From IMG/VR virus record IMGVR_UViG_3300017969_005705, positions 1 to 22,689 of that record: a stretch of DNA of 22,689 bases; one strand, 5' to 3'. A program made the position numbers and the translations under genes. Shown in pieces: positions 3,833-22,550 of this stretch. Each line of letters begins with the position of its first letter. Within the stretch, counting starts at the first letter, position 1. Origin of the DNA: a virus. Under the pieces are notes generated by a model. It made no database searches. It saw only the letters and a list, made by a program, of their open reading frames with translations, and was not told where the DNA came from.

Positions 3833-5202
3833 ATGAGATAGATCATATCAAGAATGTTTTAGATATTACAAATAAAGAAGTAAGTCCAACATTTTGTTTA
3901 GCTAAATGGCATCATACAACTCTTTATCTGCAAACTGGGGAAACGCATAGCTGTTATCACCCGCCTCCGCATAAAATATTAATAGAAGAAATAAAAAATA
4001 ATCCTAGTGCTTTGCATAATACAAGTGAAAAAAAAATGCAAAGAAGTTTAATGTTAAAAGGAGAAAAGCCTGTAGGATGCAATTATTGTTGGAATATAGA
4101 AAATTTAGGGTCCGAGTATGTAAGTGATAGGCACATAAAGACAGCAAGTATTTATACACCAGAAAGATTAGCTGAAATAAAAAATAATTCTTTTGATTTT
4201 AACATCAATCCAGAATATATAGAAATTTCTTTCTCGAATGAATGCAATTTTAAGTGTGGTTATTGTCATCCTAAAGCAAGTAGTAGATTTTGGAACGAAA
4301 TTGAAGAATTTGGACCATACAAAGACAGTACAGAGCATAGGCAAGATATAGATTGGTTTACAGTTTATAAAACCGAAGATGAAAATCCCTTTGTAGAGGC
4401 ATGGTGGAAATGGTGGCCTACTGTATCAAAAACACTTAACATTTTAAGAATAACAGGTGGAGAACCTTTATTGCACAAAAGTACTTGGAAATTGTTAGAC
4501 CTTTTAGATAAAAATCCTAAACCCTATCTTCAAATTGAATTAAATACAAATCTTGGAGTTAAAAAAAGTTTAATTGAAAAATTAGTAAAAAAAATAACAA
4601 AATTACATCAAGAGAATAAAATTAAAAGTTTTAAATTGTATTCATCTATAGATACATGGACGAGTAGAGCCGAATATGTTAGAACAGGACTAGATCTAAA
4701 ATTATGGGAAGAGAATTTAGATTATTTTTTAATGAATTCTAACTATCCAATAACTTTTATGATTACTTTTAATATATTTTCAGTAACAAGTTTTGATAGC
4801 TTATTGTTAAAGATATTAGAATGGAGAAAAAAGTATAACAATGATAAAGTAGAGCAATGGCAAAGAATAAGATTTGACACTCCACATTTAAAAGAGCCTT
4901 ATATTTTTGATATGAATATTTTGCCAAAAAGTGAATATCTTCCTTATATGTACAAACACATGGACTTTTTTAAAAAAAATTTAGATGATAATAATAAATT
5001 AAAATTTTCTACTATTGAGTTGAAAAAATTTGATAGGATTTTGAATTATATGAAAGGAACAGAATTTTCTGAGTTGAAACTTTTAGAAATAAGGAGAAAT
5101 TTTACAAATTGGTTTGATGAATATGATAGAAGAAGAAAGTTAAACAGATACGATTATTTTCCTGAAATGAAAGGTTTCTTTGAGTTGTGTAAAAAAATAT
5201 AA
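3829..5202 (+). CDS. Radical SAM protein 1, N-terminal Cys cluster (twitch/SPASM-like), 457 aa
   Basis: A radical SAM enzyme that would cleave S-adenosylmethionine with a [4Fe-4S] cluster to make a 5'-deoxyadenosyl radical. The cluster motif is CNFKCGYC (C139, C143, C146) and the SAM-contacting GGEP is at 210-213. Ahead of the core is a Cys set C23 (FCLAKW), C42, C84 and C87 (CNYC), spaced like ligands of an auxiliary iron-sulfur cluster. It differs from its neighbours in having a single Cys at position 42, where the others have a CC pair, and Lys in place of Pro in FCxxPW. The C-terminus carries the D-x-x-R...FPE signature near residues 433-446 shared with other members here. The substrate is unknown. 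The start is the ATG of an ATGA overlap with the previous gene. Confidence 0.88.
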   Translation: MNEIDHIKNVLDITNKEVSPTFCLAKWHHTTLYLQTGETHSCYHPPPHKILIEEIKNNPSALHNTSEKKMQRSLMLKGEKPVGCNYCWNIENLGSEYVSDRHIKTASIYTPERLAEIKNNSFDFNINPEYIEISFSNECNFKCGYCHPKASSRFWNEIEEFGPYKDSTEHRQDIDWFTVYKTEDENPFVEAWWKWWPTVSKTLNILRITGGEPLLHKSTWKLLDLLDKNPKPYLQIELNTNLGVKKSLIEKLVKKITKLHQENKIKSFKLYSSIDTWTSRAEYVRTGLDLKLWEENLDYFLMNSNYPITFMITFNIFSVTSFDSLLLKILEWRKKYNNDKVEQWQRIRFDTPHLKEPYIFDMNILPKSEYLPYMYKHMDFFKKNLDDNNKLKFSTIELKKFDRILNYMKGTEFSELKLLEIRRNFTNWFDEYDRRRKLNRYDYFPEMKGFFELCKKI

Positions 5203-6355
5203 TGACTATTTGATATTTATTGATAACACACAAAATTTATATGATGCTATACAGATTGATAATATATATATAGAAAGATTATTTGGTGTATTTAATGGGT
5301 TTGATATCACAAAAGTTAGAAATATTTCTTATTTAAATTTTGCTCCTGAAAATGTTCTGAAGCTAGTATTATGCCATATGCATTTGCCACTAAATTATGA
5401 AATAAATCTTGCTGATGAAACATTAATTAAAATTAATAATTCTCCTAATACTTTTTTATGGATTGTTAGTTTTTTTGAATTCTTTTTTGCCCAAGACAAA
5501 CTTTTAAATTCTATTAATTCTAGGATAATACAAGAAAAAAAAGTTATACTAACTACAAGTAATAGTAACTATAAGAATAAAATAATTAATAAAGTAAAGT
5601 TTACGTCTGTAAATACATTCTGGTGGGGATTTCATCGACATGTAATTAATCATTACCCACAGACTGCTCTTATCAAACCTTTGGAAAAGTATGATAATTT
5701 GAAGAGAGCTAAGAAAAAATTTTTATGTTTAAATCAAAATTTAAAAACTCACAGAATTTGGACAGTTTATCATATTTTAAAAGAAAATGCAGAAAAGCAA
5801 GGTTACCTCAGTTGCAGATTTGATTTAATGATTAAATTACAAAAAGATTCTGTTTTAGCAGGTTGGTATAGCAATATTAATAGGTTACCAGACAAAGATA
5901 TCGCTGAAAAGATGTCTAATGGAATTATTTTAGATAGGATTAAAGGTAAATCCGTATATAGACCAGAAGATTCTATAATGTCATATTATATGAAGTCTTT
6001 ATTCAGTATTATAACAGAATCTGATGTAGTAGAAGATTTTGTTACAGAAAAAGTATATAAAGCAATTTGTTGCTCACATCCTTTTATTATAATAGGAAGT
6101 AAAAAGTATATTACAACATTACACTCACTTGGTTTTCAAACGTACGAAGAAATATTCGGAACATCTTATATTGATAATGAACATGATTTTCAAAGATTTG
6201 TTAAAAAAATAAAAATAATGCCGCTAGATGTAATTAAGGAAAAAATTGTTGCAGTAAAAAACAAAGTAGAATATAATTATAATCATTTTCTGCAAACACC
6301 TTTACCGTTTAATCAAATAATTGAAGATATTTATAAAGTATTAGAAAATGAATAA
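5180..6355 (+). CDS. GT-B-like transferase, exostosin/GT10-like C-terminal region (391 aa)
   Basis: The C-terminal half has the pattern FVTEKVYKA (287-295), HPFIIIGS (300-307) and LHSLGFQTYEEIF (314-326), which resembles the nucleotide-sugar-binding region of exostosin- and GT10-type glycosyltransferases. A paralogue on the other strand (20624-21721) shares this region and the earlier K-x-F-x-C-x-N...HR segment (180-192 here). The role is likely sugar transfer; donor and acceptor are unknown. It is the only non-radical-SAM gene inside the radical SAM block. The start is uncertain: TTG at 5180 has AAAGG five bases upstream and overlaps the previous gene by 23 bases; another in-frame TTG lies at 5210, and no ATG is near. 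Residue numbers assume 5180. Confidence 0.7.
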   Translation: MSCVKKYNDYLIFIDNTQNLYDAIQIDNIYIERLFGVFNGFDITKVRNISYLNFAPENVLKLVLCHMHLPLNYEINLADETLIKINNSPNTFLWIVSFFEFFFAQDKLLNSINSRIIQEKKVILTTSNSNYKNKIINKVKFTSVNTFWWGFHRHVINHYPQTALIKPLEKYDNLKRAKKKFLCLNQNLKTHRIWTVYHILKENAEKQGYLSCRFDLMIKLQKDSVLAGWYSNINRLPDKDIAEKMSNGIILDRIKGKSVYRPEDSIMSYYMKSLFSIITESDVVEDFVTEKVYKAICCSHPFIIIGSKKYITTLHSLGFQTYEEIFGTSYIDNEHDFQRFVKKIKIMPLDVIKEKIVAVKNKVEYNYNHFLQTPLPFNQIIEDIYKVLENE

Positions 6356-7559
6356 AACCTTTTGTATATATCCTTGGATAAATTTCCATACAACAACTGA
6401 AGGAAGATGTAAGCTATGTTGTCATGTTTACACAGAAGATTATATTAAAGTAGGTGATAATGATGCTATTGTAGGGCATCATGATATAGATCAAATATGG
6501 TTCGGTGATTATATGGAAAATGTTCGTAATAAAATGCTAAATGGAGAGCCAGTTAAAGAATGTAGCAGATGTTATGAACACGAATTAAAAGGTATAGAAA
6601 GCAGTAGAGAATGGGCTAATAAAAATTATTTTACTAAACAATATCTAAGTTTAGAATATCCTAAACATTTAGAGTTAAGATTAGGAAATAAATGTAATTT
6701 AAAATGTAATAGTTGTTGGAGTGTTAGTAGTAGTAATTTATATAAAGAGCGTAAAAAAATTATGTCTATAGATAAGGACATTCCAGACTGGATCAATAAT
6801 CAATGGCATCATGAAATTAACATTGTGGAAAGTTTTGATTTTAAATGGTTTGAAACTAAAGAATTTTCGACTTTTATTGATAAAGTTAGTCCTACACTAG
6901 AAAAATTATATTTAACAGGAGGAGAACCAACTTTAATAAAAGCAAATGTAAATGTGTTAAATTCTTTAATAAAATATAATAATAATAGTTGTTATGTAGC
7001 ATGGACTACTAATTTAACATCTTGGCCACAAGAATTTTATGAATCTTTAGATTTTTTTGATAGCAGTGAAGTCCAAATGAGTATTGATGGATATAAATCT
7101 TCAAACACATACATCAGATATCCTACCGAATGGGATATTGTAGAAAAAAATTTTAAAAATGCGTTGGATTTACCTAGTAAAGTTTCGTTGAAAGTATATT
7201 TTGTTGTACAAGCTTGGAATCTGTTAGATATTAGAAAGCTTGTAACATGGTTAGAAACATTTGAAAGGAAAATTGATTTTGTACCTATATTTTTAGAGTA
7301 TCCGGATCAGTTACATTCAACAGTTTGGCCTAAAGAAGTGATTGAATTTATAATTAATGATTTACAAAAGATTTATACAAAAAGGCACAGTAATTCAATA
7401 GAGAGAATTATAAATTATTTACATGATTCTATTTATGATAAAAAGAAAATAACAAAAATGAAAGAATTCATTGCCATTAACGATAAATATAGGAAAATTA
7501 AATTTAAAGATATATTTCCTTATTTCCATCAAATAATAGAAAAAGAGTGCAAGATTTAA
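6348..7559 (+). CDS. Radical SAM protein 2, N-terminal Cys cluster (twitch/SPASM-like), 403 aa
   Basis: The radical SAM cluster motif is CNLKCNSC (C116, C120, C123), followed by LTGGEPT with GGEP at 191-194. The N-terminal segment is FCIYPW (C6), a CC pair (C24, C25) and CSRC (C72, C75), the pattern repeated in five other proteins of this window and probably ligating a second iron-sulfur cluster. The C-terminus has a weaker form of the shared signature (INDKYRKIKFKDIFPYF). The enzyme class is clear; the reaction is not. Radical SAM proteins with extra clusters act on peptides, sugars and cyclitols among others. The ATG at 6348 lies 8 bases inside the preceding gene, and the next gene starts 13 bases before this one ends. 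Confidence 0.88.
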   Translation: MNKTFCIYPWINFHTTTEGRCKLCCHVYTEDYIKVGDNDAIVGHHDIDQIWFGDYMENVRNKMLNGEPVKECSRCYEHELKGIESSREWANKNYFTKQYLSLEYPKHLELRLGNKCNLKCNSCWSVSSSNLYKERKKIMSIDKDIPDWINNQWHHEINIVESFDFKWFETKEFSTFIDKVSPTLEKLYLTGGEPTLIKANVNVLNSLIKYNNNSCYVAWTTNLTSWPQEFYESLDFFDSSEVQMSIDGYKSSNTYIRYPTEWDIVEKNFKNALDLPSKVSLKVYFVVQAWNLLDIRKLVTWLETFERKIDFVPIFLEYPDQLHSTVWPKEVIEFIINDLQKIYTKRHSNSIERIINYLHDSIYDKKKITKMKEFIAINDKYRKIKFKDIFPYFHQIIEKECKI

Positions 7560-8524
7560 AAGCAATTATACCAGCAAAAGAAAAATGGTGTAGTATAGTT
7601 TGGCAAGTAAATGATTGGTGCAATTACAGGTGCTCATACTGCAATGATTGGAACTGGGCTGGTAGGAACAAGAATGATAAAAACATTAATTTAATTGTAA
7701 ACACTCTTGAAAATATAATAAATTTTTATAAAAAAAATGGATATAGATATTTTAAATTGTATCTTAGTGGTGGTGAACCGACTTTTTGGGACGGACTGAT
7801 TCCTGTTGTAGAAAAATTTAGGGAGTTAGCAACTTGGCCAGGCAGTTGTGTTGGAATCAATACAAATTTTAGTAGATCAACAACTTGGTGGGAAGAAAAT
7901 CATCATTTATTTGAAGATGTTGTTGCCAGCTATCATGCAGAATGGACCAAAGAAGAAAAATATCTTAATTCTTTTAAATTTTTACAAACGAAGAAAAACT
8001 ATTTATGCAGTCGTATAATGATGCATCATCAGCTATTTCAACAATGTATTAACTTTGGTGAACGTATAAAAAAAGAGTGTCAAAATTATATAATAGAATA
8101 TGCTCCTGTTTATGACGAATTAAGACCAACAACTGACCCTTACAATTATAATGAGAAATGGCAAATGGATTTTTTTAAAAATAATAGTACAGTTTATAAA
8201 CAAACTGTGCCAATTAAAAAAAATCCTAATTATGCATGGGCGAAAATAGAATTTATTGACGGTACAACATCTCCTATCAACACAAATGCTTTAATAACTG
8301 AAAGGAAAAATTTTTTCAAAGGATGGACTTGTAATATCCATGAAAGTTTGCATATTCATCCAAATGGAAAAATTCAAGCTGCAAGTTGCGGAGTTGGTCC
8401 AGTTCTTGGCAATATTGTTCTTGGAGAATTTAATAGTCATTTAGTAGAAGGTGTAATTTGTCCAAAAAACCATTGTCATTGTGCAGCTGATTTTAACATT
8501 ACAAAATTTAAACAAAGAACATAG
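7547..8524 (+). CDS. Radical SAM protein 3, C-terminal Cys cluster (SPASM-like), 325 aa
   Basis: This enzyme has the reverse layout of its neighbours. The radical SAM motif CNYRCSYC comes early (C25, C29, C32) with GGEP at 75-78. A Cys cluster lies at the C-terminus: C262, C281, C305, C310 and C312 (ending KNHCHCAADF), preceded by HPNGKIQAASC, a SPASM-like arrangement for an auxiliary [4Fe-4S] cluster. No FCxxPW segment is present, although a lone C15 precedes the core. Trp is abundant around the motif (VNDWCNY, NDWNWAG). The start is a GTG at 7547 overlapping the previous gene by 13 bases; there is no in-frame ATG ahead of the cluster motif. The substrate is unknown; it may act with the surrounding radical SAM enzymes in one pathway. 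Confidence 0.86.
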   Translation: MQDLKAIIPAKEKWCSIVWQVNDWCNYRCSYCNDWNWAGRNKNDKNINLIVNTLENIINFYKKNGYRYFKLYLSGGEPTFWDGLIPVVEKFRELATWPGSCVGINTNFSRSTTWWEENHHLFEDVVASYHAEWTKEEKYLNSFKFLQTKKNYLCSRIMMHHQLFQQCINFGERIKKECQNYIIEYAPVYDELRPTTDPYNYNEKWQMDFFKNNSTVYKQTVPIKKNPNYAWAKIEFIDGTTSPINTNALITERKNFFKGWTCNIHESLHIHPNGKIQAASCGVGPVLGNIVLGEFNSHLVEGVICPKNHCHCAADFNITKFKQRT

Positions 8525-8538
8525 ATATAATTTAAAAA

Positions 8539-9843
8539 ATGGTAGTAGATAAAAATAAATTGCTAAAAGAATCTAAAACATTTTGTATGTTTCCGTGGAT
8601 GCATATTTACTCTAATCCTGACGGAACTACATGGCCCTGCTGTAATACTGAGCCTGAGGTTATAAATGAATCGTTGGAGAACAAGACTTTAGAAGAAATT
8701 TTTGTTAGCGAAAAATGGAATCAGTTGCGATTAGACATGCTTGAAGGAAAAGAAAATCCAGCATGTAGAAAATGCTATGCAGTTGAAAAAGCAGGCGGTG
8801 CAAGTTATAGAAGTTATGCAAATAAAGATTTTGGTAATAATATTGATTTGGTAGACAATACTTTACAAGATGGTAGTTTAGAATCGGTACAATTTAAATA
8901 TATAGATATTAGGTTTAGTAATCAATGTAATCAGGCATGTGCAACATGTGGGCCTGAATTTAGTACTTATTGGCAAAAACTATTAATAGATAATGACAGA
9001 TTTTTTGATAAATTTAAAAAATTTTATAGGTTATCAAATCATTCAAAAGAGAACATTTTTGAACAGTTAAAACCTCATTTTCCTACTGCTCAAGAAATTT
9101 ATTTTGCAGGCGGCGAACCTCTAATTATGGATGAGCACTATCAAATATTAAATCATCTAATAGATATAAAAGCTAATGATACTGTAAAGTTAAGATACAA
9201 TAGTAATTGTAGTAATTTTTACTATAAAAAAAGTAGTGTTATAAATTTATGGAATAAATTTAAATATGTTAAGTTAGGAGCAAGTGTAGATGCTGTTGAA
9301 GATGTTGCAGAGTTAATAAGATTTGGTACTAATTTTAAAACGTTATCTAGTAATTTAAAAGAAGCATTAACTTGTGAAAATTTAATATTACAATATGATA
9401 CTGTTGTAAGTGTACTAAACATTGATCATTTACCTTATATGTATGATTATTTGTTAGAAAATGATTTAGTGAATAAACAAACATGGTTTACACTTAATTT
9501 AGCCTTCACCCCTCTTCCTTTTAGTTTAACTAGTTTAATACCTAAATATAAAGAAAAATATTCCAAAAAAATATTAGATTATGCAGATTCTTTAGAAAAT
9601 AGAAAAGTTAAAAATATAGGAACATCGGCAAAAGAATTTTTAATTAATCAGTTAAGAGCAATACCTAATTTCATGTATGGAAGTGATACTTGGGAAAAAG
9701 ATGAAAAATGGTATGGGTTGCATGCACTTGTAGGTTGGACTATTAGAGATCATCAAGCTTTTGAAAATCTTATACCTGATGTTTATGATATGGCATTTAA
9801 TATAGCAAACAGATATGATAGAAATGGAAACAGAATTTCCTAA
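8539..9843 (+). CDS. Radical SAM protein 4, N-terminal Cys cluster (twitch/SPASM-like), 434 aa
   Basis: The N-terminal cluster segment is FCMFPW (C16), WPCC (C34, C35) and CRKC (C76, C79). The radical SAM motif is CNQACATC (C130, C134, C137) and GGEP is at 191-194. The segment YIDIRFSNQCN places it with proteins 5 and 6, which follow in tandem, so these three look like products of local duplication and divergence. Its C-terminus departs from the others: the D-x-x-R...FPE signature is replaced by RDHQAFENLIPDVYDMAF and then a short basic tail. It is preceded by a 14-base gap, the only break within the radical SAM run, with no clear ribosome binding site before the ATG. The substrate is unknown. 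Confidence 0.88.
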   Translation: MVVDKNKLLKESKTFCMFPWMHIYSNPDGTTWPCCNTEPEVINESLENKTLEEIFVSEKWNQLRLDMLEGKENPACRKCYAVEKAGGASYRSYANKDFGNNIDLVDNTLQDGSLESVQFKYIDIRFSNQCNQACATCGPEFSTYWQKLLIDNDRFFDKFKKFYRLSNHSKENIFEQLKPHFPTAQEIYFAGGEPLIMDEHYQILNHLIDIKANDTVKLRYNSNCSNFYYKKSSVINLWNKFKYVKLGASVDAVEDVAELIRFGTNFKTLSSNLKEALTCENLILQYDTVVSVLNIDHLPYMYDYLLENDLVNKQTWFTLNLAFTPLPFSLTSLIPKYKEKYSKKILDYADSLENRKVKNIGTSAKEFLINQLRAIPNFMYGSDTWEKDEKWYGLHALVGWTIRDHQAFENLIPDVYDMAFNIANRYDRNGNRIS

Positions 9844-11020
9844 ATATTTCTGTATGGCACCTTGGGTGCATATGAGTATATGGCAAACAGGAGATGCTTA
9901 TCCATGCTGTATTTACGATTGGCAAACACCAATTGGCAATATAAATCAGCAAGGAATTTATCAAACTTGGAATAGTCAAAAAATGAAGCAGTTACGCCTT
10001 GAGATGCTAAGAAATATTCCAGCACAAGGCTGTACAAAGTGTTTTGATTATGAAAAGAAAGGTATTTTATCTTATAGGCATAAGATGAATAAAGATTATA
10101 AACATCATTTTGATTTAGTAAAGTCTACAGATGAAACTGGCAAAGTAGAAAAATTGAATATTGCATATTTTGATGTAAGATTTTCAAATTTGTGTAATAT
10201 GAAATGCAGGTCTTGTGGTGCTCACTTTAGTAGTAAATGGGGAGAAGATCTTTACGGATCTCCTAAGATTATTGAAATCGAGTATGAGAATTTATGGGAA
10301 GAAATTGATCTTTTGTTGCCAAATGTAGAAGAAATTTATTTTACAGGAGGAGAAAGTTTATTCATGCCTCAGCATTATAAATTGTTAGATAAACTAATAC
10401 AAAAAAAGTTGTTTCCAAAATTAACGTATAATAGTAATGCAAGTAGATTAAATTTAAAAAATAATCATGTTGCAGATTATTGGAAGTATTTTACTGATAT
10501 AGAATTTTATATTAGTTTTGATCAAATATATGATAAGGCAGAATTTGCTAGACACGGTCAACAATGGAATATTATTTATAAAAATTTAATGTATATTAAA
10601 AACAATTTAAAACATGTTAAATTACGTCCTAATCCGACAATTAGCGTATTAAATATTTTAGATTTAGCTAATATAGTAAAATTTTGTTTCGATGAAAAAA
10701 TTTCATACAAATATCAAATGAATATGAACAATTTACTTATAACTCCTGAATATTTAAGTTGCACTATATTACCAAAAAGGTTAAAACAACTTGCAGAAGA
10801 AAGAATTAATTTTTTTATTAAAGAATTAAAATCTTATGACATTGAAAAAAATAATTTAGAAAAACTAAAACATAGTTTTTTAAAAGTTATAGAATTTATG
10901 TATAGTGCAGATAATACTCATATGATACCTATTTTTAAAAAAGAAATGCAAAGTTTAGATAAAAAAAGAGGTGAAAATTTTGTTAAAACCTATCCAGAAA
11001 TGACAGAGTTGTATGATTGA
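9815..11020 (+). CDS. Radical SAM protein 5, N-terminal Cys cluster, GGES variant (401 aa)
   Basis: The layout matches proteins 4 and 6: FCMAPW (C13), PCC (C31, C32), CTKC (C73, C76), then the radical SAM motif CNMKCRSC (C127, C131, C134). The motif that normally reads GGEP is GGES at 178-181 (FTGGESLF); Gly-Gly-Glu, which contacts the methionine end of SAM, is kept, so activity is still expected. The C-terminal signature LDKKRGENFVKTYPEM is clear. The ATG at 9815 gives a 29-base overlap with the upstream gene; a second in-frame ATG at 9824 is equally possible. Closest relative in the window by eye is protein 6, with matching phrases VRFSNLCN/IRVSNLCN and YQTWNSQKM/YQIWNSNSM. Confidence 0.88.
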   Translation: MIEMETEFPKYFCMAPWVHMSIWQTGDAYPCCIYDWQTPIGNINQQGIYQTWNSQKMKQLRLEMLRNIPAQGCTKCFDYEKKGILSYRHKMNKDYKHHFDLVKSTDETGKVEKLNIAYFDVRFSNLCNMKCRSCGAHFSSKWGEDLYGSPKIIEIEYENLWEEIDLLLPNVEEIYFTGGESLFMPQHYKLLDKLIQKKLFPKLTYNSNASRLNLKNNHVADYWKYFTDIEFYISFDQIYDKAEFARHGQQWNIIYKNLMYIKNNLKHVKLRPNPTISVLNILDLANIVKFCFDEKISYKYQMNMNNLLITPEYLSCTILPKRLKQLAEERINFFIKELKSYDIEKNNLEKLKHSFLKVIEFMYSADNTHMIPIFKKEMQSLDKKRGENFVKTYPEMTELYD

Positions 11021-12206
11021 AAATAAAGTATTTTGTATGATGCCGTGGATACATATGCATGTTTGGCCTGCAGGTACAGTTTATCCTTGTTGCATGGCCG
11101 ACCCAGAATTACCTATAGGAGATCTTAATAATAATTCAATTTATCAAATTTGGAATAGCAATAGTATGAAAAATTTACGGAAAAATATTCTTGCTAATAA
11201 AAGATCTCCTGAATGTAAACGTTGCTATGAATTAGAAGAAAATAATATACATACTTTAAGATTAAGTTCTAATGAAAATTTTAAGCATAGATTAGAAAAA
11301 ATACATAGCACTAAGGAAGATGGGTCGGTTGAAAAGTTTAATATGTATTACATGGACATACGGGTAAGTAATCTTTGTAATTTAAAATGTAGATCTTGTG
11401 GACCTCAGCTTAGTAGTAGCTGGTATGAAGATCATATTAGTTTACATGGAGATATACAACAACAGAAAATTTTAAAAGTTAATAAAAACTTTGTTAAAGA
11501 TTTATATCCATTATTATTAGATGTTGAAAGAGTTTATTGGGCAGGTGGTGAACCGTTAATAACTGAAGAACATTATGATATTTTAGACTTTTGGATAGAT
11601 AATAATAAAACAAATATTAAATTAGATTACACAACTAATTTTACTCAAATGAGGTATAAGAAAAAAACAATATTTGAGTATTGGAATTTTTTTAAGAGTG
11701 TTAGAGTAGCAGCTAGTTTAGATGCAAATTATAAAAAAGGAGAATTTTTAAGGAAAAATATTTCATGGAGTCAAATTGTTCAAAATAGAAAAGACATGAT
11801 AAAAGAATGTCCGGATGTATATTTTGAAATAACTCCTACTGTAAGTGTATACAATGTTTTTAATTTACCGGATTTTCATAAAGAATGGATTGAAGCAGGG
11901 TTGTTACGTCCGGAAAACTGGAGAATAAATATTTTGCTAGATCCTGTTTATATGAGATTACAAATTTTACCTATAGAATTGAAAAAATCTGTAACAAAAA
12001 AATACGAAAATCATATCAAATATTTAGAACAATTTCCAAATACAAAAAATGTTATAGATGGGTATAACAGTATCTTATCTTTTATGTCTGTAGGCAGGGA
12101 AAAGGAAATACATAGATTTAAAATTAAGACAAAATTATTAGATGAATTACGAAATGAAAACTTTAGAGATGTCTTTCCAGAATTAACAGAAATTGCTTAT
12201 GAATAG
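11013..12206 (+). CDS. Radical SAM protein 6, N-terminal Cys cluster (397 aa)
   Basis: N-terminal FCMMPW (C8), PCC (C26, C27) and CKRC (C68, C71) precede the radical SAM motif CNLKCRSC (C122, C126, C129); GGEP is at 178-181. The C-terminal signature LDELRNENFRDVFPEL is one of the clearest in the set. Similarity to protein 5 runs through the whole chain, including PIGDLNNNSIYQIWNSNSM against PIGNINQQGIYQTWNSQKM, which supports recent tandem duplication. It overlaps the upstream gene by 8 bases and the downstream B12-type gene by 8, counted from the ATG preferred for the latter. The reaction is unknown. Near-identical layouts with divergent core sequences suggest that the neighbouring paralogues act on related but different substrates. 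Confidence 0.88.
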   Translation: MIENKVFCMMPWIHMHVWPAGTVYPCCMADPELPIGDLNNNSIYQIWNSNSMKNLRKNILANKRSPECKRCYELEENNIHTLRLSSNENFKHRLEKIHSTKEDGSVEKFNMYYMDIRVSNLCNLKCRSCGPQLSSSWYEDHISLHGDIQQQKILKVNKNFVKDLYPLLLDVERVYWAGGEPLITEEHYDILDFWIDNNKTNIKLDYTTNFTQMRYKKKTIFEYWNFFKSVRVAASLDANYKKGEFLRKNISWSQIVQNRKDMIKECPDVYFEITPTVSVYNVFNLPDFHKEWIEAGLLRPENWRINILLDPVYMRLQILPIELKKSVTKKYENHIKYLEQFPNTKNVIDGYNSILSFMSVGREKEIHRFKIKTKLLDELRNENFRDVFPELTEIAYE

Positions 12207-14379
12207 TAAAATTGTAGATTTTTTTAGTTTACCAGATGCTCGATCAAAAGATAAAATTAAAAAACCTAATAAAGTAACAGCAGAAGATAAACATACTGCT
12301 ACACTTGAGATTATAAAAGAATTAAGTAAAGTAAGCCAAAAAGGGCTTGAAAATTTAGAAATTAATTACAATGTAGACAGAAAAACAAAAATTGTTCTTT
12401 GCTTATTGCCAGAGTGGGATTCAAATTTTCCTCCATATAACTTAGCAAAGCTTGCAGGCGCAATAAAAGTAAGCGGTTTTTTTTGTAAAAGTTTTGATTT
12501 AAACGCAGGAGCTCATCATTATTATCAAAATTTAGATAACAAATTAGATTATTATCCTTGGTCTCCCTTACGAGATTTTCATTGGCAAAATAATTTATAT
12601 TTTGAGGAATTGCATCCTGTGTTACAACCTTATTTTGATAAAAAAATACAAGAGATCGTTGAAATATCTCCGGATATTGTAGGTCTTACACTTTATTATT
12701 GTAATTATGAACCTTCTATTTATGTTGCAAATGAGCTAAAAAAATTCTTACCTAATATTAAATTTGTTGTAGGAGGACCTCATACTCATAATAGTTTTTT
12801 CAAAAGCAATAGTATTTTTGATTACGTTGTAAATGGAGAAGGTGAAAAACCTTTATTAGATATTTTAGAACAAATAGAGCAAGAAAAAGAAGTAGAGTTT
12901 ACAGATAAAAATGATAATAGTTTTTTTATTAGACAACCTGAAAACCAACGATATAATTTAAGTACTCTCCCATCACCTGATTATTCTGATTTTGATTTTT
13001 CACTTTATAAATTTCCTAATGGAGCATTGTGTGAAATTAGTAGAGGTTGTATTGCTAAATGCACATTTTGTGAAGAAACCCATTTTTGGAAATACAGGCA
13101 AAGAACTGCATTAAGCACACTAGAAGAAATTGAACGTATGTATTATACCTATGGTACAAATGTTTATTGGTTTATAGATAGTTTAGTTAATGGAAATTTA
13201 AATGAGTTAAGAGCTTTTTGCAGGGCAGTTCATCGGAAAGGATTAAAAATACACTGGACAGGATATGCTAGGTGCGACGGCAGAATGGATTTAGAGTATT
13301 ACAAAGATTTAAAAAAGGGAGGCTGTACAGTTTTAAATTATGGTATTGAAAGCGGTAGTCAGAAGGTCCTTGATAAAATGGATAAAAAAGTTACTGTTGA
13401 AGAAATGGAAGCAAATTTTAGAGATGGCAGTGCTGCTGGCATAGGTGCAATGACAAACTGGATAGTTGGTTTTCCTAATGAAAGACATATCGATTTTGAT
13501 AATACTTTAACATTTTTGTACAGAATAAAAGATAAAGGGTTATTATCTATAGCGCAAGGAACAGGATTTGTAGTAGGAGTAGATACTATAGTAGGACAAA
13601 ATTTTGACAAATTTGATCTCTTGCCCTATTATTATTATGATCATTGGATAACAAAGGATTTTAAAGCAAGTATTGCTCACAAAATGGTAAAAAATAAGCT
13701 TTTCAGTATATTTACAGACTTGATTAAGACAGACGAGGCTTGCGCTAAACCAACTAGAGAAAGGTTAGCTCAGGAACATTATAGAGTTGATTTTTTGAAT
13801 CCTGAGTTAGAAAAAGAAATACAATATACTTCAAAAGATTTTAATTATAATATAATAAATTCAAATATAGGACCATTCCAAGATAGTTTAATGAATGAAA
13901 TTTGGCCTTTTTTTCATATTTTGTGGAAAATAAAAGGTGGTTATAGTTTTCAACTGCTATTTAATATTAAGTTAGATCAAGAAGAATGGGGTATCAGGGG
14001 GTCGGCACCACTTAATTCTCTAATTAAATTTGATATTGATAATAATGGCAAATGGAAAGCCGATTGTACATTTGAATATAAGCAAGAAGATTATAATGGA
14101 TGGAATGATGTAAAATGGAAAGATCATTGGGGAAAAGAATTTTGTGCTCCAGATCCAGTAGGACCAGTGTGGAAAGTAACAGATTTTACAAGAGATACAA
14201 GTAACAGTGCAATACGTGCAAGAAAACTTGCTTGGAGAGATGATATTAAATATGATAATAGAGATCCGAAAAATGCTTTTAACGAAGACGAATATACGCA
14301 AATAGTACAAGAATTTTTAAATTATAGAAATATAAATTTTAGTTTTAATTATGAGTTCAAAAACAATGGAAAATGGTAG
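12199..14379 (+). CDS. Radical SAM protein 7: B12-binding-type (class B), 726 aa with long C-terminal extension
   Basis: Residues about 64-225 form a Rossmann-like segment of the cobalamin-binding type (KIVLCLLPEWDSNFPPYNLA, then DIVGLTLYY, IKFVVGGPHTHNSFF and VVNGEGEKPLLDIL). The radical SAM motif follows in SRGCIAKCTFC (C284, C288, C291), then YGIESGSQKVLDKM (381-394) and WIVGFPNE (421-428), typical of the class B/Elp3-like barrel. Such enzymes often methylate unreactive carbons or rearrange rings. I see no DxHxxG cobalamin motif; many radical SAM relatives lack it. The last ~250 residues are Trp- and Asp-rich and unrecognised. I prefer ATG at 12199 over the in-frame TTG at 12193, because it gives the usual 8-base overlap and a normal start codon. 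Confidence 0.85.
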   Translation: MNSKIVDFFSLPDARSKDKIKKPNKVTAEDKHTATLEIIKELSKVSQKGLENLEINYNVDRKTKIVLCLLPEWDSNFPPYNLAKLAGAIKVSGFFCKSFDLNAGAHHYYQNLDNKLDYYPWSPLRDFHWQNNLYFEELHPVLQPYFDKKIQEIVEISPDIVGLTLYYCNYEPSIYVANELKKFLPNIKFVVGGPHTHNSFFKSNSIFDYVVNGEGEKPLLDILEQIEQEKEVEFTDKNDNSFFIRQPENQRYNLSTLPSPDYSDFDFSLYKFPNGALCEISRGCIAKCTFCEETHFWKYRQRTALSTLEEIERMYYTYGTNVYWFIDSLVNGNLNELRAFCRAVHRKGLKIHWTGYARCDGRMDLEYYKDLKKGGCTVLNYGIESGSQKVLDKMDKKVTVEEMEANFRDGSAAGIGAMTNWIVGFPNERHIDFDNTLTFLYRIKDKGLLSIAQGTGFVVGVDTIVGQNFDKFDLLPYYYYDHWITKDFKASIAHKMVKNKLFSIFTDLIKTDEACAKPTRERLAQEHYRVDFLNPELEKEIQYTSKDFNYNIINSNIGPFQDSLMNEIWPFFHILWKIKGGYSFQLLFNIKLDQEEWGIRGSAPLNSLIKFDIDNNGKWKADCTFEYKQEDYNGWNDVKWKDHWGKEFCAPDPVGPVWKVTDFTRDTSNSAIRARKLAWRDDIKYDNRDPKNAFNEDEYTQIVQEFLNYRNINFSFNYEFKNNGKW

Positions 14380-15703
14380 TAGATTAACAGATACTTATTG
14401 CTATCATATAATGCAAGGAGTAAGTATTTCTGGTGTAGGTAGAGCAAGGCCTTGTTGTGTGTCTGAGCCTATGAATATTAAAAATTTTGTCTCTCCAGAA
14501 AGTTTAAAGATTTTTTCTAATGATAATGATAAAGGACATGTTTGCAGTAATTTAGAAGAACTAATTAATGATCCTGTTTTAAAAAAAATAAGGGCAAATA
14601 TGTTACTAGGAAAACGTTCTGATGAATGCAAATATTGTTATGCAAGAGAAGATGCAGGATTAACAAGTTTTAGACAAATACATAATGACATACATGAAGA
14701 TAAAATAGATAAAAAAATTAAAAATGTTAGGGCTGATGGTTTTTTAAAAACAGAAGCAATTTCGTATTTGGATATTACTTTAGGAAATATTTGTAATTTA
14801 AAATGTAGGACTTGTAATCCCTGGTCTAGTCATAGTTGGTTAGAAGAAGCTAAAGTTATTCCTCATATTAATATAGATAGTAAATATTCATTAGAAAATT
14901 ATGTGAATTCAGAACAGTGGTATGTTCATGCATTTAAAACAGGTTTTTTTGATGATGTTTTACCTAATGTAAAACATATAAATTTTTTAGGAGGAGAGCC
15001 TTTAGTTGTAGAGGTGCATTATGAGTGGCTGCAAAAAATAGTTGAAAAAGGATTATCAAAAGAAATAGAATTGCATTATAACACAAATCTTACAACTTTA
15101 CCTAGGAAAATTTTAGAAATTTGGAAATATTTTAAGATGATACATTTATCATTAAGTATTGATGCAGTAGGTAAATTAGCATATTATGTTAGATATCCTA
15201 GCAAATGGAAAAATATTGAAAAAAATGTAGATAAGTTAATTGTTTATTCAACTAATAGTAAAAATTTCAGTGTTCAGACTCATTTAACATTAAGTGTACT
15301 AAATATTTTTGATATTGATAATGTATTAAATTGGTGTATAGAACAATATAATAAATGGCATTTTATAGATAATAAAAGTTTTGTTCATTATGGGTATAGA
15401 AATATGTTACCTCATGTAAACATAGTAGAAAATCCCGAATATATGCATGTAAGGCATCTTCCCAATGATGTAAAGAACATTGTTTGTAAAAAAATAGACA
15501 AAGTGTGTCAATATATTTCTCACTTAGGCATTCCTGATTGGGAAATTAACAAATTGAATGACATTTTAAATTTAAAAAGTATGATTAATTTAGATAGGAA
15601 CGAAAAAAGTTGGAATAAATTTATTGAAAATACTAATGCAAGCGATGCATTTAGAAAATTATCTATTAAAGAATATATAAATTGGACAAATACACACATA
15701 TGA
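14351..15703 (+). CDS. Radical SAM protein 8, N-terminal Cys cluster (450 aa)
   Basis: The radical SAM motif is CNLKCRTC (C148, C152, C155) with LGGEPL (GGEP 214-217). The N-terminal cluster segment has C17 in DTYCYHIMQG in place of the FCxxPW of the others, then RPCC (C35, C36) and CKYC (C93, C96), with one extra Cys (C65) in a ~20-residue insertion. The region between the motif and GGEP is longer than in proteins 4-6. The C-terminus has only a faint form of the shared signature (DAFRKLSIKEYINW). It is the most diverged of the six N-terminal-cluster enzymes. The start overlaps the B12-type gene by 29 bases; an in-frame ATG at 14366 is an alternative. The stop overlaps the next ATG as ATGA. 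Confidence 0.86.
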   Translation: MSSKTMENGSRLTDTYCYHIMQGVSISGVGRARPCCVSEPMNIKNFVSPESLKIFSNDNDKGHVCSNLEELINDPVLKKIRANMLLGKRSDECKYCYAREDAGLTSFRQIHNDIHEDKIDKKIKNVRADGFLKTEAISYLDITLGNICNLKCRTCNPWSSHSWLEEAKVIPHINIDSKYSLENYVNSEQWYVHAFKTGFFDDVLPNVKHINFLGGEPLVVEVHYEWLQKIVEKGLSKEIELHYNTNLTTLPRKILEIWKYFKMIHLSLSIDAVGKLAYYVRYPSKWKNIEKNVDKLIVYSTNSKNFSVQTHLTLSVLNIFDIDNVLNWCIEQYNKWHFIDNKSFVHYGYRNMLPHVNIVENPEYMHVRHLPNDVKNIVCKKIDKVCQYISHLGIPDWEINKLNDILNLKSMINLDRNEKSWNKFIENTNASDAFRKLSIKEYINWTNTHI

Positions 15704-16449: not shown

Positions 16450-18417
16450 ATGTTTGATATTTTTTATATATCTAATGTCAAAGATGAAAACTTTTTTAAA
16501 ATAAAAAGCATTTACATTACTGTAAAAAAAGTTGACACAATTGAAGAAGCTCAAGAAAAATCCTTAACAAAATTTTTATGGGTTATTTGGAATGATGTTG
16601 ATGTAGAATTTAATTTTGATTTTATTCCTGATGAATGGAGTCAAAATATTACCCATGTGTTTAAAAATGACAATTGGTATGACGGTGTATGGTTATTACC
16701 AAAAGATATTAAGTTATCAAAAAAAGAAATAGAAAATAGATTTATTGTATCAAGAAAAGAAGTTGATCTTGTTGTATCAAAACCTATTAGTTTTGATATT
16801 TTTACTATAGAAACCTATAATGATTATTTATATGCTTTAGAAAATTCTAAAACCGAAATGTTTTGGGGCACGTGTAGTTCTATAGATACAGAAAATTTTA
16901 ATTTTAATTTTTATTTTCCTTTTTATGATAGATATAACAGGACAGAAAATCATGCATTTATACATAGAGTAGGAGATAAAGATTATTATAATGGGTTGTT
17001 TTTATTTTCTAAGCATAAACCAGTTACTAAAAAAGAAATTGATTATAGGCACTTAGTTTCTCGTAAGGAATGGGACATAGTTGCAAGTACACCTGTTAAG
17101 TATGATCAATTTAATATTGAAACATATGATGATTATCTATATGCATTAGAAAATTCTAAAACTGAAATGTTTTGGGCAAATACACCTAATATAGATACAA
17201 GCAATTTTGATTTTGATATGTATTTTACCCACGATAATGAATATGATAGAAAGATAAATCACGCATTCATCCATAGGGTTGATGATAAAGATTACTACAA
17301 TGGATTGTTTTTATTATCTAAGCATAAAATTTTATCAAAAAAAGAAATTGAATTTAGACATTTGGTTTCACGTAAGGAATGGGACATAGTTGCAAGTACA
17401 CCTGTAAATTACGCTATAATGAATGTAGATAATTACGATGATTATTTGCATGCATTCAAAAATTCCACTACAGAATTATTCTATGCAGTTCCGATGCAAG
17501 TTAAAGATATAGTTATTCCTAATTTATATTTTACACACGATGACGAATATAATAGAAAAGAAAATCATACATTCAAAAACATATGTAACGGAGAAGAAAA
17601 AGACAATGGAGTCTTTTTATGTTCAAAACATAAACCTATTAGTAAAAGAGAGCTTGAGCATCGACATATTGTACATAAAAAATCTTGGGATATTATTGTC
17701 TCTAGGCACAAGCCATATGATGTAGTGTTTATGAGTTATGATGAAGCATTGGCAGACAAGCACTATGAGCAATTGTTAAAGAAAGCACCTTACGCTACTC
17801 GGGTTCATGGTGTAAAAGGTATCCACCAAGCACATATACAGGCAGCAAAGCAATCGCAGTCTGAGATGGTATGGATTGTAGATGCCGATGCTATATTGTT
17901 GGATGATTTTAACTTTGATTTGTTTGTTGAGAAATGGGATAGAGAAACAGTTCACGTATGGAGATCAAAAAATCCTATTAATAATTTAGTTTATGGTTAT
18001 GGAGGAATAAAATTATTTCCCCGACAACTTACTGTCAACATGGATACTTCAAAGCCTGATATGACTACCTCAATCACAGATAAGTTTAAAGCTATGCAAG
18101 AAGTATCTAATATTACTGCATTTAATGTTGATGAGTTTTCGACTTGGAAATCTGCTTTTAGAGAATGTTGTAAATTAGCATCTAAGGTAATTGATAGACA
18201 AAAGTCTCAAGAAACTGAACAAAGATTAGATATATGGTGTACAATTGGCGAGGATAAAGAATTTGGAAAATATTCTATAGCTGGCGCAAAAGCAGGAAGA
18301 GAGTACGGTTATAAAAATCAAGATGATGTAGAAGCATTAAAGAAAATAAATGATTTTGATTGGTTAAAGGTTTATTGGAATGAATATAAAAATTTTAAAG
18401 AAATTAGAATAGATTAA
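16450..18417 (+). CDS. Tandem-repeat protein fused to a DxD transferase-like domain (655 aa)
   Basis: Residues ~1-420 hold four copies of a ~103-residue unit, roughly 1-112, 115-216, 219-320 and 322-420. Each has an acidic Asn/Asp/Phe segment (for example NFDFDMYFTHDNEYDRK), a DKDYYNGLFL-type strand, SKHK, and a closing VSRKEWDIVAS-type phrase. Units 2 and 3 are nearest; unit 1 is most diverged. Residues ~421-655 match the 308-residue protein at 2906-3832: RVHGVKG (451-457), VDAD (477-480, DxD type), INNLVYGYGGIK (510-521), W-x-x-x-FRE (566-572), IW-x-x-IG-x-D (595-602) and IAGAKAG (610-616). This part is probably a GT-A-like transferase. The repeats may bind the polymer or acceptor, or space the catalytic domain. 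No signal peptide is seen. Confidence 0.72.
   Translation: MFDIFYISNVKDENFFKIKSIYITVKKVDTIEEAQEKSLTKFLWVIWNDVDVEFNFDFIPDEWSQNITHVFKNDNWYDGVWLLPKDIKLSKKEIENRFIVSRKEVDLVVSKPISFDIFTIETYNDYLYALENSKTEMFWGTCSSIDTENFNFNFYFPFYDRYNRTENHAFIHRVGDKDYYNGLFLFSKHKPVTKKEIDYRHLVSRKEWDIVASTPVKYDQFNIETYDDYLYALENSKTEMFWANTPNIDTSNFDFDMYFTHDNEYDRKINHAFIHRVDDKDYYNGLFLLSKHKILSKKEIEFRHLVSRKEWDIVASTPVNYAIMNVDNYDDYLHAFKNSTTELFYAVPMQVKDIVIPNLYFTHDDEYNRKENHTFKNICNGEEKDNGVFLCSKHKPISKRELEHRHIVHKKSWDIIVSRHKPYDVVFMSYDEALADKHYEQLLKKAPYATRVHGVKGIHQAHIQAAKQSQSEMVWIVDADAILLDDFNFDLFVEKWDRETVHVWRSKNPINNLVYGYGGIKLFPRQLTVNMDTSKPDMTTSITDKFKAMQEVSNITAFNVDEFSTWKSAFRECCKLASKVIDRQKSQETEQRLDIWCTIGEDKEFGKYSIAGAKAGREYGYKNQDDVEALKKINDFDWLKVYWNEYKNFKEIRID
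17062..17405 (+). repeat. Intragenic tandem repeat with two identical 35-base blocks
   Basis: Bases 17062-17096 and 17371-17405 are identical over 35 bases. The period of 309 bases is exactly 103 codons, the repeat length of the encoded protein. Both encode RKEWDIVASTPV. Identity at the DNA level, with diverged flanks, points to recent duplication or gene conversion between repeat units 2 and 3 of the 655-residue protein. Confidence 0.85.
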
Positions 18418-18529: not shown

Positions 18530-19756
18530 ATGATGAAAATAGGATATATAGGCTTAGGCAAGCTAGGCATGCCCTGTGCCGAAGCAATTGTAGATAAAGG
18601 ATTCTTAGTCGAAGGATATGATATCAATACTGTATACAGCAAAAAAGTTCTTGTCTTAGACAGCATCGAATCAGCAGTAAAAAATAAAGATATTGTTTTT
18701 GTAGCAGTACCTACACCACATAGCAAAATGTATGATGGCGCGACACCATCCACAGATTTACCACCAAAGGATTTTACATATAATATAGTTACAGATGTTC
18801 TAATAGAAGCTAATAAGCATATGAACAAGAATCAATTATTAGTTCTAATTAGCACAGTTCTGCCAGGCACTGTAAGACGTGAGTTTGCTAAGTTAGTAAC
18901 GAATACAAGACTTATTTACAACCCATATCTTATTGCTATGGGAAGTGTAGCATATGATATGGTAAATCCTGAAATGGTAATGATTGGCACTCAAGATGGT
19001 AGCGAAACAGGCGACGCCAAACTGTTAAAAGAGTTTTATCAAAACATTATGGAGAATGATCCACGTTATGTAATTGGAACTTGGGATGAGTGTGAATGTA
19101 TTAAAGTATTTTATAATACTTTTATTTCAGCAAAGCTAAGTTTAGTTAATATGATACAAGACGTAGCTGAACGTCAAGGTAATATAAATGTTGATGTCGT
19201 TACAGAGGCACTAGCTCAGTCAGATAAACGTATTATGGGCCCACAATATATGACAGCGGGTATGGGCGATGGCGGAGCGTGTCATCCAAGAGATAATATT
19301 GCTCTGCGCTGGATGGGTCAACAGTTAGATTTAGGATATGATATTTTTGATTGCATTATGCAAGCTAGGGATATTCAAGCAGAAAATTTAGCTACAGTAT
19401 TAGTAACAGAATCTCAAAATAATGATTATCCAATAGTAATACACGGTAAAGCATATAAGCCAAATGTCGCATACACGGAAGGTAGTTACAGTATGTTGGT
19501 TGGACACTATTGTGAAGCAATGGGAGTAAAGCCAAACTATTTAGATCCATTGACTGGTGATAACTACGAACCACTTGGACCTTGTGTATTTTTATTAGCT
19601 CATAACTCATATGTTACCTATCAACATACAGGACAAAATTATGAGAATAAGCTATACTGTAAAATTCCTAATGATTCAATTGTAGTAGATCCGTGGAGAG
19701 CCTATAAAAATGATAAATGCAAAGTAATTCATTACGGTAATACTCGCCATGTATGA
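18530..19756 (+). CDS. UDP-glucose/GDP-mannose 6-dehydrogenase-like protein (408 aa)
   Basis: The N-terminus has the NAD-binding GxGxxG (G8-L-G-K-L-G13), a YDIN acidic end to the second strand, and VAVPTP at 58-63, as in nucleotide-sugar dehydrogenases that oxidise UDP-glucose or similar to the uronate by two NAD-dependent steps. The central helix region KVFYNTFISAKLSLVNM keeps the family Lys (K192) and Asn (N196). The catalytic-Cys loop is GDGGACHPRD with C251 present; the Lys that usually follows in family members is Arg here. The C-terminal nucleotide-binding domain runs to the end, including IHGKAYKPN. The start may be either of two consecutive ATGs at 18530 and 18533. The substrate sugar cannot be assigned. 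Gene remnants lie on both sides. Confidence 0.82.
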   Translation: MMKIGYIGLGKLGMPCAEAIVDKGFLVEGYDINTVYSKKVLVLDSIESAVKNKDIVFVAVPTPHSKMYDGATPSTDLPPKDFTYNIVTDVLIEANKHMNKNQLLVLISTVLPGTVRREFAKLVTNTRLIYNPYLIAMGSVAYDMVNPEMVMIGTQDGSETGDAKLLKEFYQNIMENDPRYVIGTWDECECIKVFYNTFISAKLSLVNMIQDVAERQGNINVDVVTEALAQSDKRIMGPQYMTAGMGDGGACHPRDNIALRWMGQQLDLGYDIFDCIMQARDIQAENLATVLVTESQNNDYPIVIHGKAYKPNVAYTEGSYSMLVGHYCEAMGVKPNYLDPLTGDNYEPLGPCVFLLAHNSYVTYQHTGQNYENKLYCKIPNDSIVVDPWRAYKNDKCKVIHYGNTRHV

Positions 19757-19969
19757 TATTGTTTTTATTTCATATAATGGGCCAAATGCTGATGAAAACT
19801 GGGCAGCATTAAATGGTGCACAGTTGGTGCAGATAAACCTTATGGAGAGCATGCCATAGCAGGGGCTAAAGCAGGCAGAGAATATGGTTATAAACATACA
19901 GGCAATGTAGAAGCATTAAAACAAATAAATGATTGTGATTGGTTAAAGGAGCAATTTGACAGTAACTAA
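19749..19969 (+). pseudogene. Internally deleted, frameshifted copy of the DxD transferase-like family
   Basis: The ATG at 19749 overlaps the dehydrogenase by 8 bases and opens a frame reading MYDIVFISYNGPNADENWAA, the N-terminus of this family (YDIIYLSYDEPNAEKNY in the 308-residue protein). After about 21 codons the match stops, and the frame ends at TAG 19857-19859. In another frame, from 19814 to a TAA at 19967-19969, the C-terminal end of the family appears: WCTVGADKPYGEHAIAGAKA and onward to INDCDWLKEQF, matching residues 596-640 of the 655-residue protein. About 150 residues, including the DxD motif, are gone and the frame is broken at the join. By hand, bases 19814-19949 and 18235-18370 match at about 107 of 136 positions without gaps. 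Confidence 0.85.
19945..19951 (+). promoter_or_regulatory. Ribosome binding site AAAGGAG selecting a TTG start
   Basis: AAAGGAG, one of the strongest Shine-Dalgarno matches in the window, ends four bases before the TTG at 19956. There is no ATG or GTG nearby in the methyltransferase frame, so this site decides the start. It sits inside the last codons of the broken transferase-like copy. Confidence 0.6.
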
Positions 19970-20633
19970 AATTTTAAACGGCATTGAATATTTGTATCCA
20001 GAAAATAATTTGATAGCACAAATAAAAAGAACTCTCAATTCATTTCCAGAATGCGAAGAGGCACTTACAGATGCGTTGTCTATTGGCCAACTGAAGAGTA
20101 AAATGTGGCTTATCGATCATCTACCAAATAATTTAGGTATTGTGTTTATTTGTGCAGGATGGTATGCTGTATTAGCGAGTATTATGTTTGAAAGTAATTT
20201 AAGGTTTGATAAAATTAGATCATTTGATATTGATAAATCTTGCGCTAATATCGCTGATACATTTAATAGAAAATATGTAGTTAATGGTTGGAAATTTAAA
20301 GCATCTACATTAGATATTCATAAATTAACATATCCGCTTACATATACAACATATCGAAAAGATGGCAGTAGTGTTGACTTGACAGAAATGCCTAATACAA
20401 TTATAAATACATCATGTGAACATATAGATAATTTTAGGTTATGGTATGATCATTTACCGCCTAATGTATTATTATGTTTACAAACAAATAATTATTTTGA
20501 AATAGAAGACCACATCAATTGTTCAAAATCGTTAGATCATTTCGCAGAAACAACTCCAATGTCTAATGTATTATTTGAAGGAGAGCTTCCTCTAGAAAAA
20601 TATAATAGATTTATGAGAATTGGCTACAAATAA
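19956..20633 (+). CDS. Class I SAM-dependent methyltransferase-like protein (225 aa)
   Basis: Residues 62-74 (VFICAGWYAVLAS) sit where motif I of a Rossmann methyltransferase is expected, with CAGW in place of GxG. RSFDIDKS at 88-95 is the acidic motif II that binds the SAM ribose, and NTIINTSCEHID at 147-158 takes the place of motif IV. Length and order fit a small-molecule or glycan O-methyltransferase; the substrate is unknown. The start is TTG at 19956, chosen because AAAGGAG precedes it by four bases and the next candidate starts would cut into conserved sequence. The start lies in the tail of the broken transferase-like copy, 14 bases before that copy's stop. It converges with the minus-strand gene, with a 10-base overlap of the two 3' ends. 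Confidence 0.7.
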   Translation: MTVTKILNGIEYLYPENNLIAQIKRTLNSFPECEEALTDALSIGQLKSKMWLIDHLPNNLGIVFICAGWYAVLASIMFESNLRFDKIRSFDIDKSCANIADTFNRKYVVNGWKFKASTLDIHKLTYPLTYTTYRKDGSSVDLTEMPNTIINTSCEHIDNFRLWYDHLPPNVLLCLQTNNYFEIEDHINCSKSLDHFAETTPMSNVLFEGELPLEKYNRFMRIGYK

Positions 20634-21884: not shown

Positions 21885-22550
21885 ATGGAAAAAATAACAG
21901 CAGTTTTGCCTTGTAGATTAGGCAGTACAAGATTAAAATTTGATAAACAGTCAGCTCCGTTTGGTGATACAACGCTAATAGAATTAAAAGTTAACCAATT
22001 ATTAAAATCAAAACTAATTAATGATATAGTATTATCAACCGATGATGAAAAGATTTTTAAAAAATTTGCCAATGTTGACAGAGTAAAAGTTTACGAAAGA
22101 GATTCAAAACTATTGCATAGCACTGATAGTAATTCATTAATAGAAGTTTGTTTTCAACATGTACCTAACGGTTATGTATTGTTAACTCATTGTACAGTTC
22201 CATTTTTTGACGAGTATGATAAGGTAATTGAATATTACAAAGCAAATAATTGCGATTCAGTTTCAACAGCAAGAAGAATTGGATCTTTTGTAATGGATGG
22301 CGTTAATATAATGAATTGGAACCGCACAGGTAGTAATGACTTGTGGCCTAAAACACAAGAATTACCAAAATGGTATGAAATAGATAGTGCTGTAGAACCG
22401 TTTATGCATATAGATATAATGAAAGAACGCTATGATAGAGTAGGTTACAAGCCAATGTATTATGAAACCAACGCCTTACAATCAATTGATATTGACACTG
22501 AAGAGGATTGGAAGTTAGCAGAAACTCTTTATAAAAAATTAAATGGATAA
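21885..22550 (+). CDS. Cytidylyltransferase, CMP-sugar (NeuA/KdsB-like) synthetase (221 aa)
   Basis: It likely activates an acidic sugar by transferring CMP from CTP. The N-terminal AVLPCRLGSTRL at 6-17 is the nucleotide-binding loop of this family. LSTDDEKI (50-57), LLTHCTVPFF (99-108) and the closing IDIDTEEDW (201-209) follow in the family order; the last is the usual metal-binding end. The length of 221 is near that of known CMP-acylneuraminate and CMP-KDO synthetases. Which sugar it uses cannot be told; a phosphosugar nucleotidyltransferase with another substrate is possible. AGG four bases before the ATG and the late promoter-like motif at 21851 support the start. It would feed activated sugar to the transferases nearby. 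The stop overlaps the next gene by 8 bases. Confidence 0.8.
   Translation: MEKITAVLPCRLGSTRLKFDKQSAPFGDTTLIELKVNQLLKSKLINDIVLSTDDEKIFKKFANVDRVKVYERDSKLLHSTDSNSLIEVCFQHVPNGYVLLTHCTVPFFDEYDKVIEYYKANNCDSVSTARRIGSFVMDGVNIMNWNRTGSNDLWPKTQELPKWYEIDSAVEPFMHIDIMKERYDRVGYKPMYYETNALQSIDIDTEEDWKLAETLYKKLNG

Follow-up and report, generated by a model that had tools for sequence, protein, structure and literature searches.

A probable viral GT-A glycosyltransferase preceded by an array of degenerate GT-A-like units

We analysed a 22,689-base stretch of DNA from a virus (hereafter the window) and found that the tandem repeats of one of its proteins are very probably degenerate GT-A glycosyltransferase cores that share homology with the protein's own transferase domain. 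The protein is very probably a C-terminal GT-A enzyme, ahead of which an arm is built from degenerate GT-A modules of common origin with it, and it belongs to a large family in viral contigs from water samples, in which the arm varies in length.

Repeat units and transferase domain of the window protein

The array gene, its parts, and the stand-alone relative of its transferase domain are as follows:

16450 to 18417, plus strand: whole array gene, 655 aa, four degenerate GT-A units and one GT-A transferase domain (from the ORF list, alignment, AlphaFold, and profile comparison)
16450 to 16788, plus strand: U1, first unit, aa 1-113, which still has beta1-alpha1-beta2, the opening elements of the transferase fold, and reads N-D-V at the DxD, second Asp position kept
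16789 to 17100, plus strand: U2, aa 114-217
17101 to 17409, plus strand: U3, aa 218-320, closest to U2 (72% in aa and 77% in DNA over aligned codons)
17410 to 17709, plus strand: U4, final unit, aa 321-420, whose closest relatives are last units in other proteins
17062 to 17096, plus strand: 35-nt block, first copy, identical to 17371-17405 at an offset of 309
17371 to 17405, plus strand: 35-nt block, second copy
17710 to 18414, plus strand: transferase domain, GT-A core at aa 421-558 with VDADA (D478, D480), then a helical tail up to aa 655
2906 to 3832, plus strand: 308-aa protein homologous to the transferase domain and encoded on its own, zero units (from alignment)

The original prediction, made from the sequence alone, had described four tandem units of about 103 residues within residues 1-420, and this anatomy was confirmed: with U2 as phmmer query, U3 (E = 2.4e-51), U4 (2.6e-28), and U1 (4.2e-14) were all found, the C-terminal domain matched weakly (2.5e-4), and the units measured 100-113 aa (n = 4). 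A period of 309 was detected at 16801-17405 (TRF), and the identical 35-nt blocks described as lying exactly 309 nt apart are indeed there, as a single pair. Since an identical run of at least 35 nt arose in 1.7% of 5000 codon-order shuffles that kept the overall U2/U3 similarity, this identity is only mild evidence that the block is a recent conversion tract. The proposed homology between the C-terminal domain and the 308-residue protein also held, with aa 423-645 aligning at 33% identity (E = 8e-32).

The repeat itself had been left unrecognised, and here profile comparison went further, making it recognisable as a degenerate GT-A module akin to the transferase. An alignment of 127 units was compared by hhalign with one of 93 transferase domains (the non-identical ones among 150), giving a probability of 96.3 and P = 1.8e-9; against the 22 transferase domains from bacterial-genome loci alone, P was 6.8e-6. 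In controls, the best probability among 30 column-shuffled profiles was 2.8 and that of a reversed profile was 0.2.

Predicted structures were consistent with this assignment. AlphaFold modelled the whole protein with a pLDDT of 91.2 and a pTM of 0.71, and the unit models follow the strand and helix order of the transferase domain minus alpha1-beta2, a start that U1 retains. The transferase model (421-558) matched B4GALNT1 with Z = 11.3 (rmsd 2.6; 136 aligned), followed among solved structures by IspD (11.2), ThuS (10.8), and WrtF (10.6); IspD is a nucleotidyltransferase of related fold and scores like the GT-A enzymes for this model. Modelling one unit alone, which had been proposed as a check, succeeded in that U3 gave a mixed alpha/beta fold with a pLDDT of 96.6 and a pTM of 0.88, but its structural matches were modest: the top rows for a unit were GT-A or nucleotidyltransferase chains at Z of 6.5 or less, where common arrangements score too, and the best Foldseek E value was 0.028.

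The DxD motif was present in 41/41 transferase-domain cluster representatives (38 by pattern and three read by eye). Both aspartates were found in 0/291 units, while the second Asp position was kept in 34/37 first units and 60/214 internal units. In a Pfam scan of the window protein with E up to 1, the only match was PF00535 (Glycos_transf_2), under its gathering cut-off (17.4 vs 23.3 bits), and neither a TPR nor a dioxygenase domain was detected.

Copy number and turnover of the units

We searched viral contigs with the window protein (44 loci), a unit alignment (78 loci; best 80 of 249 matches), N0, the N-terminal domain of tail-linked members (79 loci; best 80 of 91 matches), and an array that lacks the enzyme (11 loci). 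The unit and N0 searches each retained their 80 top-ranked relatives (of 249 and 91, respectively), so the full family exceeds this sample, and its counts lean toward the query.

Counting copies per homologue, as had been suggested, revealed 0, 2-11, or 16 units rather than a fixed four. Among 98 distinct complete transferase-bearing proteins, the unit counts (with proteins in brackets) were 0 (17), 2 (1), 3 (13), 4 (4), 5 (18), 6 (8), 7 (2), 8 (6), 9 (10), 10 (1), 11 (12), and 16 (6); L199 (a frameshifted 11-unit gene), ORFs that were incomplete or no longer than 330 aa, and repeated sequences were excluded from this set. Every listed protein that possesses a transferase has a single one, at its C-terminus. 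The zero-unit proteins make up 17/98, and the arm is therefore dispensable in some lineages; all 17 retain the N0 domain, a family weakly related both to the units (P = 6.7e-5) and to the transferase (P = 1.7e-5). The two-unit protein is a piece of a gene broken by a stop in L111 and L173. This in-frame stop lies inside the array (L111, 6063-8600 and 8604-9911; likewise L173), and L107, on another contig, lacks it and reads through. In L117 the array gene is present as two frames that overlap by 23 nt (7035-8333 and 8311-9288), as it is in L121 and L123; these splits represent a programmed frameshift, a real break, or a shared error.

Units at the two ends of the array are fixed by position, and those between them are gained and lost as entire modules. 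In a nearest-unit analysis of 261 near-complete units, of which only 11 were first units, 36/40 last units were nearest to the last unit of another protein, and 33/210 internal units were nearest to a unit in their own protein (shuffled mean 7.35, maximum 18, over all 261 units). Recent duplicates were found in L114 (units 3/4; 88% DNA identity, 69 nt of it unbroken), L048 (units 6/7; 86%, 68 nt unbroken), and L082 (units 4/5; 88%). Moreover, L207 (nine units) and L206 (eight units) have transferases that are 99.5% identical and differ by the gain or loss of unit number 4 (312 nt), with the rest in register.

This turnover is slow. Copy number differed in 8/143 protein pairs with a transferase identity of at least 0.90, and all eight fell within the L206/L207 lineage. 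We therefore rejected a hypervariable or phase-variable repeat, since close relatives are almost always equal in copy number. The idea that recombination lengthens and shortens the array was thus upheld by the range of 0-16 units, the 312-nt indel, and the recent duplicates, whereas fast turnover was not; a constant set of four evenly diverged units was not found. Two further events were observed: a 69-aa in-frame deletion within unit 6 (L202 vs L204), off the module borders, and a junction at position 5105 in each of L004 and L005, which are 99.6% identical from within U1 on and unrelated upstream, reflecting either recombination or a chimeric contig.

Genomic settings and distribution

Family members occur in two settings. 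Those bearing N0 adjoin tail genes in 54/54 distinct cases, in the order tail-fibre-like ORF, phrog_1409, phrog_1574 (Anp1-like transferase), array gene, nudix, and then a tail sheath/sheath stabiliser family and a virion structural protein. The upstream fibre ORFs mostly extend past the ends of the compared loci. At the phrog_1574 position in L062, PF03452 scored over its cut-off, and the nearest named relatives of the virion structural protein (38%) are in the large-genome phages Phosso (469 kb) and Atu_ph07 (490 kb). In contrast, members without N0, the window type, had radical SAM or UDP-glucose dehydrogenase neighbours in 28/30 cases and tail genes in 0/30. Downstream of the array gene, the window contains:

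18530 to 19756, plus strand: UDP-glucose/GDP-mannose dehydrogenase-like cassette gene
19749 to 19959, plus strand: decayed second transferase copy that has lost the middle of the domain and keeps its two ends
19956 to 20633, plus strand: 225-aa gene, which usually adjoins the array gene in members of the window type and resembles a methyltransferase by eye alone
21885 to 22550, plus strand: cytidylyltransferase (CTP_transf_3), nucleotide-sugar activation

In the decayed copy, roughly the first 24 and the last 46 transferase positions survive. Its DNA is 96.6% identical to the 3' end of the L003 array gene and only 78.6% identical to the window's own array gene, and this closer likeness to L003 suggests that an older allele stood here before the present array gene and the dehydrogenase took its place. 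Upstream, 3829-15703 is a run of radical SAM genes, in which the ORFs at 3829, 12193 (with a B12-binding domain), and 14351 match PF04055, the ORF at 8539 matches NF033640, and those at 6348, 7547, 9815, and 11013 are alike by eye. The protein end encoded at 2-247 is weakly similar (E = 3.6e-4) to a 347-aa ORF located 5' of the array gene in the tail-linked L170 locus, and the start of the window may thus adjoin a virion gene.

The transferase domain was also encoded at 15 bacterial-genome loci (Bdellovibrionota, Mucilaginibacter, Dyadobacter, and others), part of which could stem from phage sequence that was binned into MAGs. A separate unit was present at 0/15 of these loci, and the unit profile matched 0/13 of the bacterial genomes concerned and 0/240 genomes of one phylum, 15/240 of which carry the transferase; as a positive control, the same profile matched 3/3 virus records. 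Missing in the bacteria searched and detectable in virus records, the unit array looks, from these sequence searches, like a viral elaboration. In L125 and L126, the dehydrogenase, a bare transferase, and the 225-aa gene are adjacent to one another. Other architectures were observed as well: the transferase domain is fused with a homologue of the 308-aa type in L127 (2985-4634) and L130 (7125-8672), with a radical SAM/SPASM-like part slightly under Pfam cut-offs in L134 (6747-8708), and with Glyco_tranf_2_4 in L139 (7650-9560).

Known sequences offered few counterparts. A tblastn search of 50,697 phage records with four family proteins (from the window, L020, L008, and L036) returned zero matches; the structural gene of a family locus matched 60 of the same records, so the search itself works. 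NCBIfam held zero families for the array protein, PHROGs gave only a marginal match to an unknown family (E = 0.015), and PDB sequences gave zero matches to the transferase profile. In BFVD, two proteins of uncultured Caudovirales phage, A0A6J5LK21 (E = 2.3e-35) and A0A6J5L5L5 (E = 2.3e-31), match the whole model and, to judge from that structural agreement, probably belong to the same family as the window protein; both are uncharacterised, with neither name nor description in the BFVD table.

Arrays without an enzyme and a possible role of the arm

Three contigs of 236-330 kb hold both array kinds, and in each the tail-linked copy has lost all or part of the transferase. In G004 and G005 this copy is an 845-aa protein composed of N0 and seven units, the seventh shortened, with zero transferase, a form present in six contigs in total. 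In G001 (L154, 6073-7674, plus strand; 330-kb contig) it is a 534-aa protein in which the GT-A half of the transferase is lost and the helical end is kept. Two of the enzyme-less arrays are located as follows:

L152, 6586 to 9120, minus strand: 845-aa tail-linked array without transferase, reading frame open
L153, 5413 to 7947, plus strand: 845-aa tail-linked array without transferase, reading frame open

Between G004 and G005, dN/dS was 0.066 for the 845-aa array (dN 0.026, dS 0.394), indicating that the enzyme-less array is maintained by strong purifying selection; in the enzyme-bearing 857-aa paralogue the values were 0.119 for the array and 0.007 for the transferase. On these substitution rates, the array probably has a function of its own, apart from the enzyme. 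A 692-aa protein with five units and no transferase match (L211) may be a further enzyme loss or a frameshift.

An explanation that we hold with belief and doubt in about equal measure is that the protein is a GT-A glycosyltransferase with a non-catalytic arm of dead modules, acting on a virion or surface glycan. The enzyme would use a nucleotide sugar, supplied in the window's setting by the cassette, to assemble or terminate a glycan, either at the cell surface or on the virion, where the tail fibre would be the target in the tail-linked setting. Donor binding would be lost in the dead modules, and the extended arm would bind the acceptor or fix its distance, a role for the modules to which we incline somewhat less than halfway. 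Recombination among neighbouring modules would reset arm length between lineages. The glycan- or surface-binding function put forward in the original prediction may hold as well. A bolder version, which we advance tentatively and would not expect to hold in full, is that aquatic jumbo phages made a novel kind of modular carbohydrate-recognition arm, a ruler of up to 16 pseudo-enzyme modules, from their own dead glycosyltransferase copies; recombination would reset its length and middle and so tune which tail-fibre or cell-surface glycan is handled, and the arm could work without an enzyme.

Alternatively, the dead modules could dock pathway enzymes as an assembly line rather than bind an acceptor, the partners being the radical SAM, dehydrogenase, and 225-aa gene products, or the Anp1-like transferase in the tail setting. 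Neighbours are constant in both settings, and a selected enzyme-less array could act in trans with the enzyme-bearing paralogue of the same contig; however, copy number ranges from 0 to 16 despite unchanged tail-setting neighbours, which one module per partner would not predict, and we consider such a scaffold doubtful. It is unlikely that the array serves the virion structurally, as a fibre or an adhesin-like protein, with the transferase either attached as a modifier or left over. The tail-linked site does adjoin fibre and sheath-family genes, some arrays have lost the enzyme, and length varies by whole modules, as it does in other repeat fibres, but most members retain the transferase (98 distinct complete proteins), it is the most constrained part of the 857-aa pair, and the window type is found apart from tail genes in 30/30 cases. 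For the enzyme-less arrays themselves, a place in the virion or a scaffold role would fit just as well as an arm. That the units still function as donor- or metal-binding sites of a multi-site transferase is improbable: the retention of the second Asp position, mainly in first units, would fit, but none has both aspartates and the units lack the alpha1-beta2 of the transferase domain. Finally, although every viral locus is a metagenome contig, the L004/L005 junction could be a chimera, and L199 is frameshifted, it is highly improbable that copy-number differences are assembly artefacts of the repeats, given that unit number recurs (16 in 12 complete loci of one cluster and 11 in 13 of another, some of which overlap on one contig) and that the average DNA similarity among the units within one protein is mostly 55-65%, too low for easy collapse.

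The glycosyltransferase with a dead-module arm resembles several known systems in part. The collagen lysyl hydroxylase-glycosyltransferase LH3/PLOD3, chains of which were among the Foldseek matches, has one inactive domain together with a dioxygenase domain, and we know of no modular gain or loss in it. The inactive GT-A-like AC domain of LH3 stands in line with the active GT domain, according to one article (PMC6082870). LH3 thus sets an example of a single inactive GT-A domain adjacent to an active one, whereas the window family has arrays of up to 16 and the window protein lacks the dioxygenase domain. The chondroitin polymerase K4CP and CHSY3-CHPF, also among the structure matches, have multiple GT-A domains per protein or complex, full-length and at most two per chain, and, unlike the window family, they are not known to have an array of DxD-less cores. 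TPR-type O-GlcNAc transferase, a functional analogy only, places a variable-length repeat arm for substrate recognition before the glycosyltransferase; its arm consists of TPR helices and its enzyme is GT-B, whereas in the window family the repeats have the fold of the enzyme to which they are fused. Among titles and abstract openings, with few subscription papers and no bioRxiv, we found no description of long inactive GT-A arrays. Another article (PMC12619734) places several putative glycosyltransferases in the core genome of one large-aquatic-phage lineage.

Single inactive GT-A domains next to active ones were already known, and the long arrays appear to be the new part. A natural series of 0-16 modules at one conserved locus, together with arrays that lack the enzyme, provides a way to ask what pseudo-glycosyltransferase modules do and whether the reach for substrate depends on array length. 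Viral contigs commonly carry this family, which the family libraries searched lack, and its description would also give a name and a handle to large uncharacterised phage proteins that adjoin tail genes.
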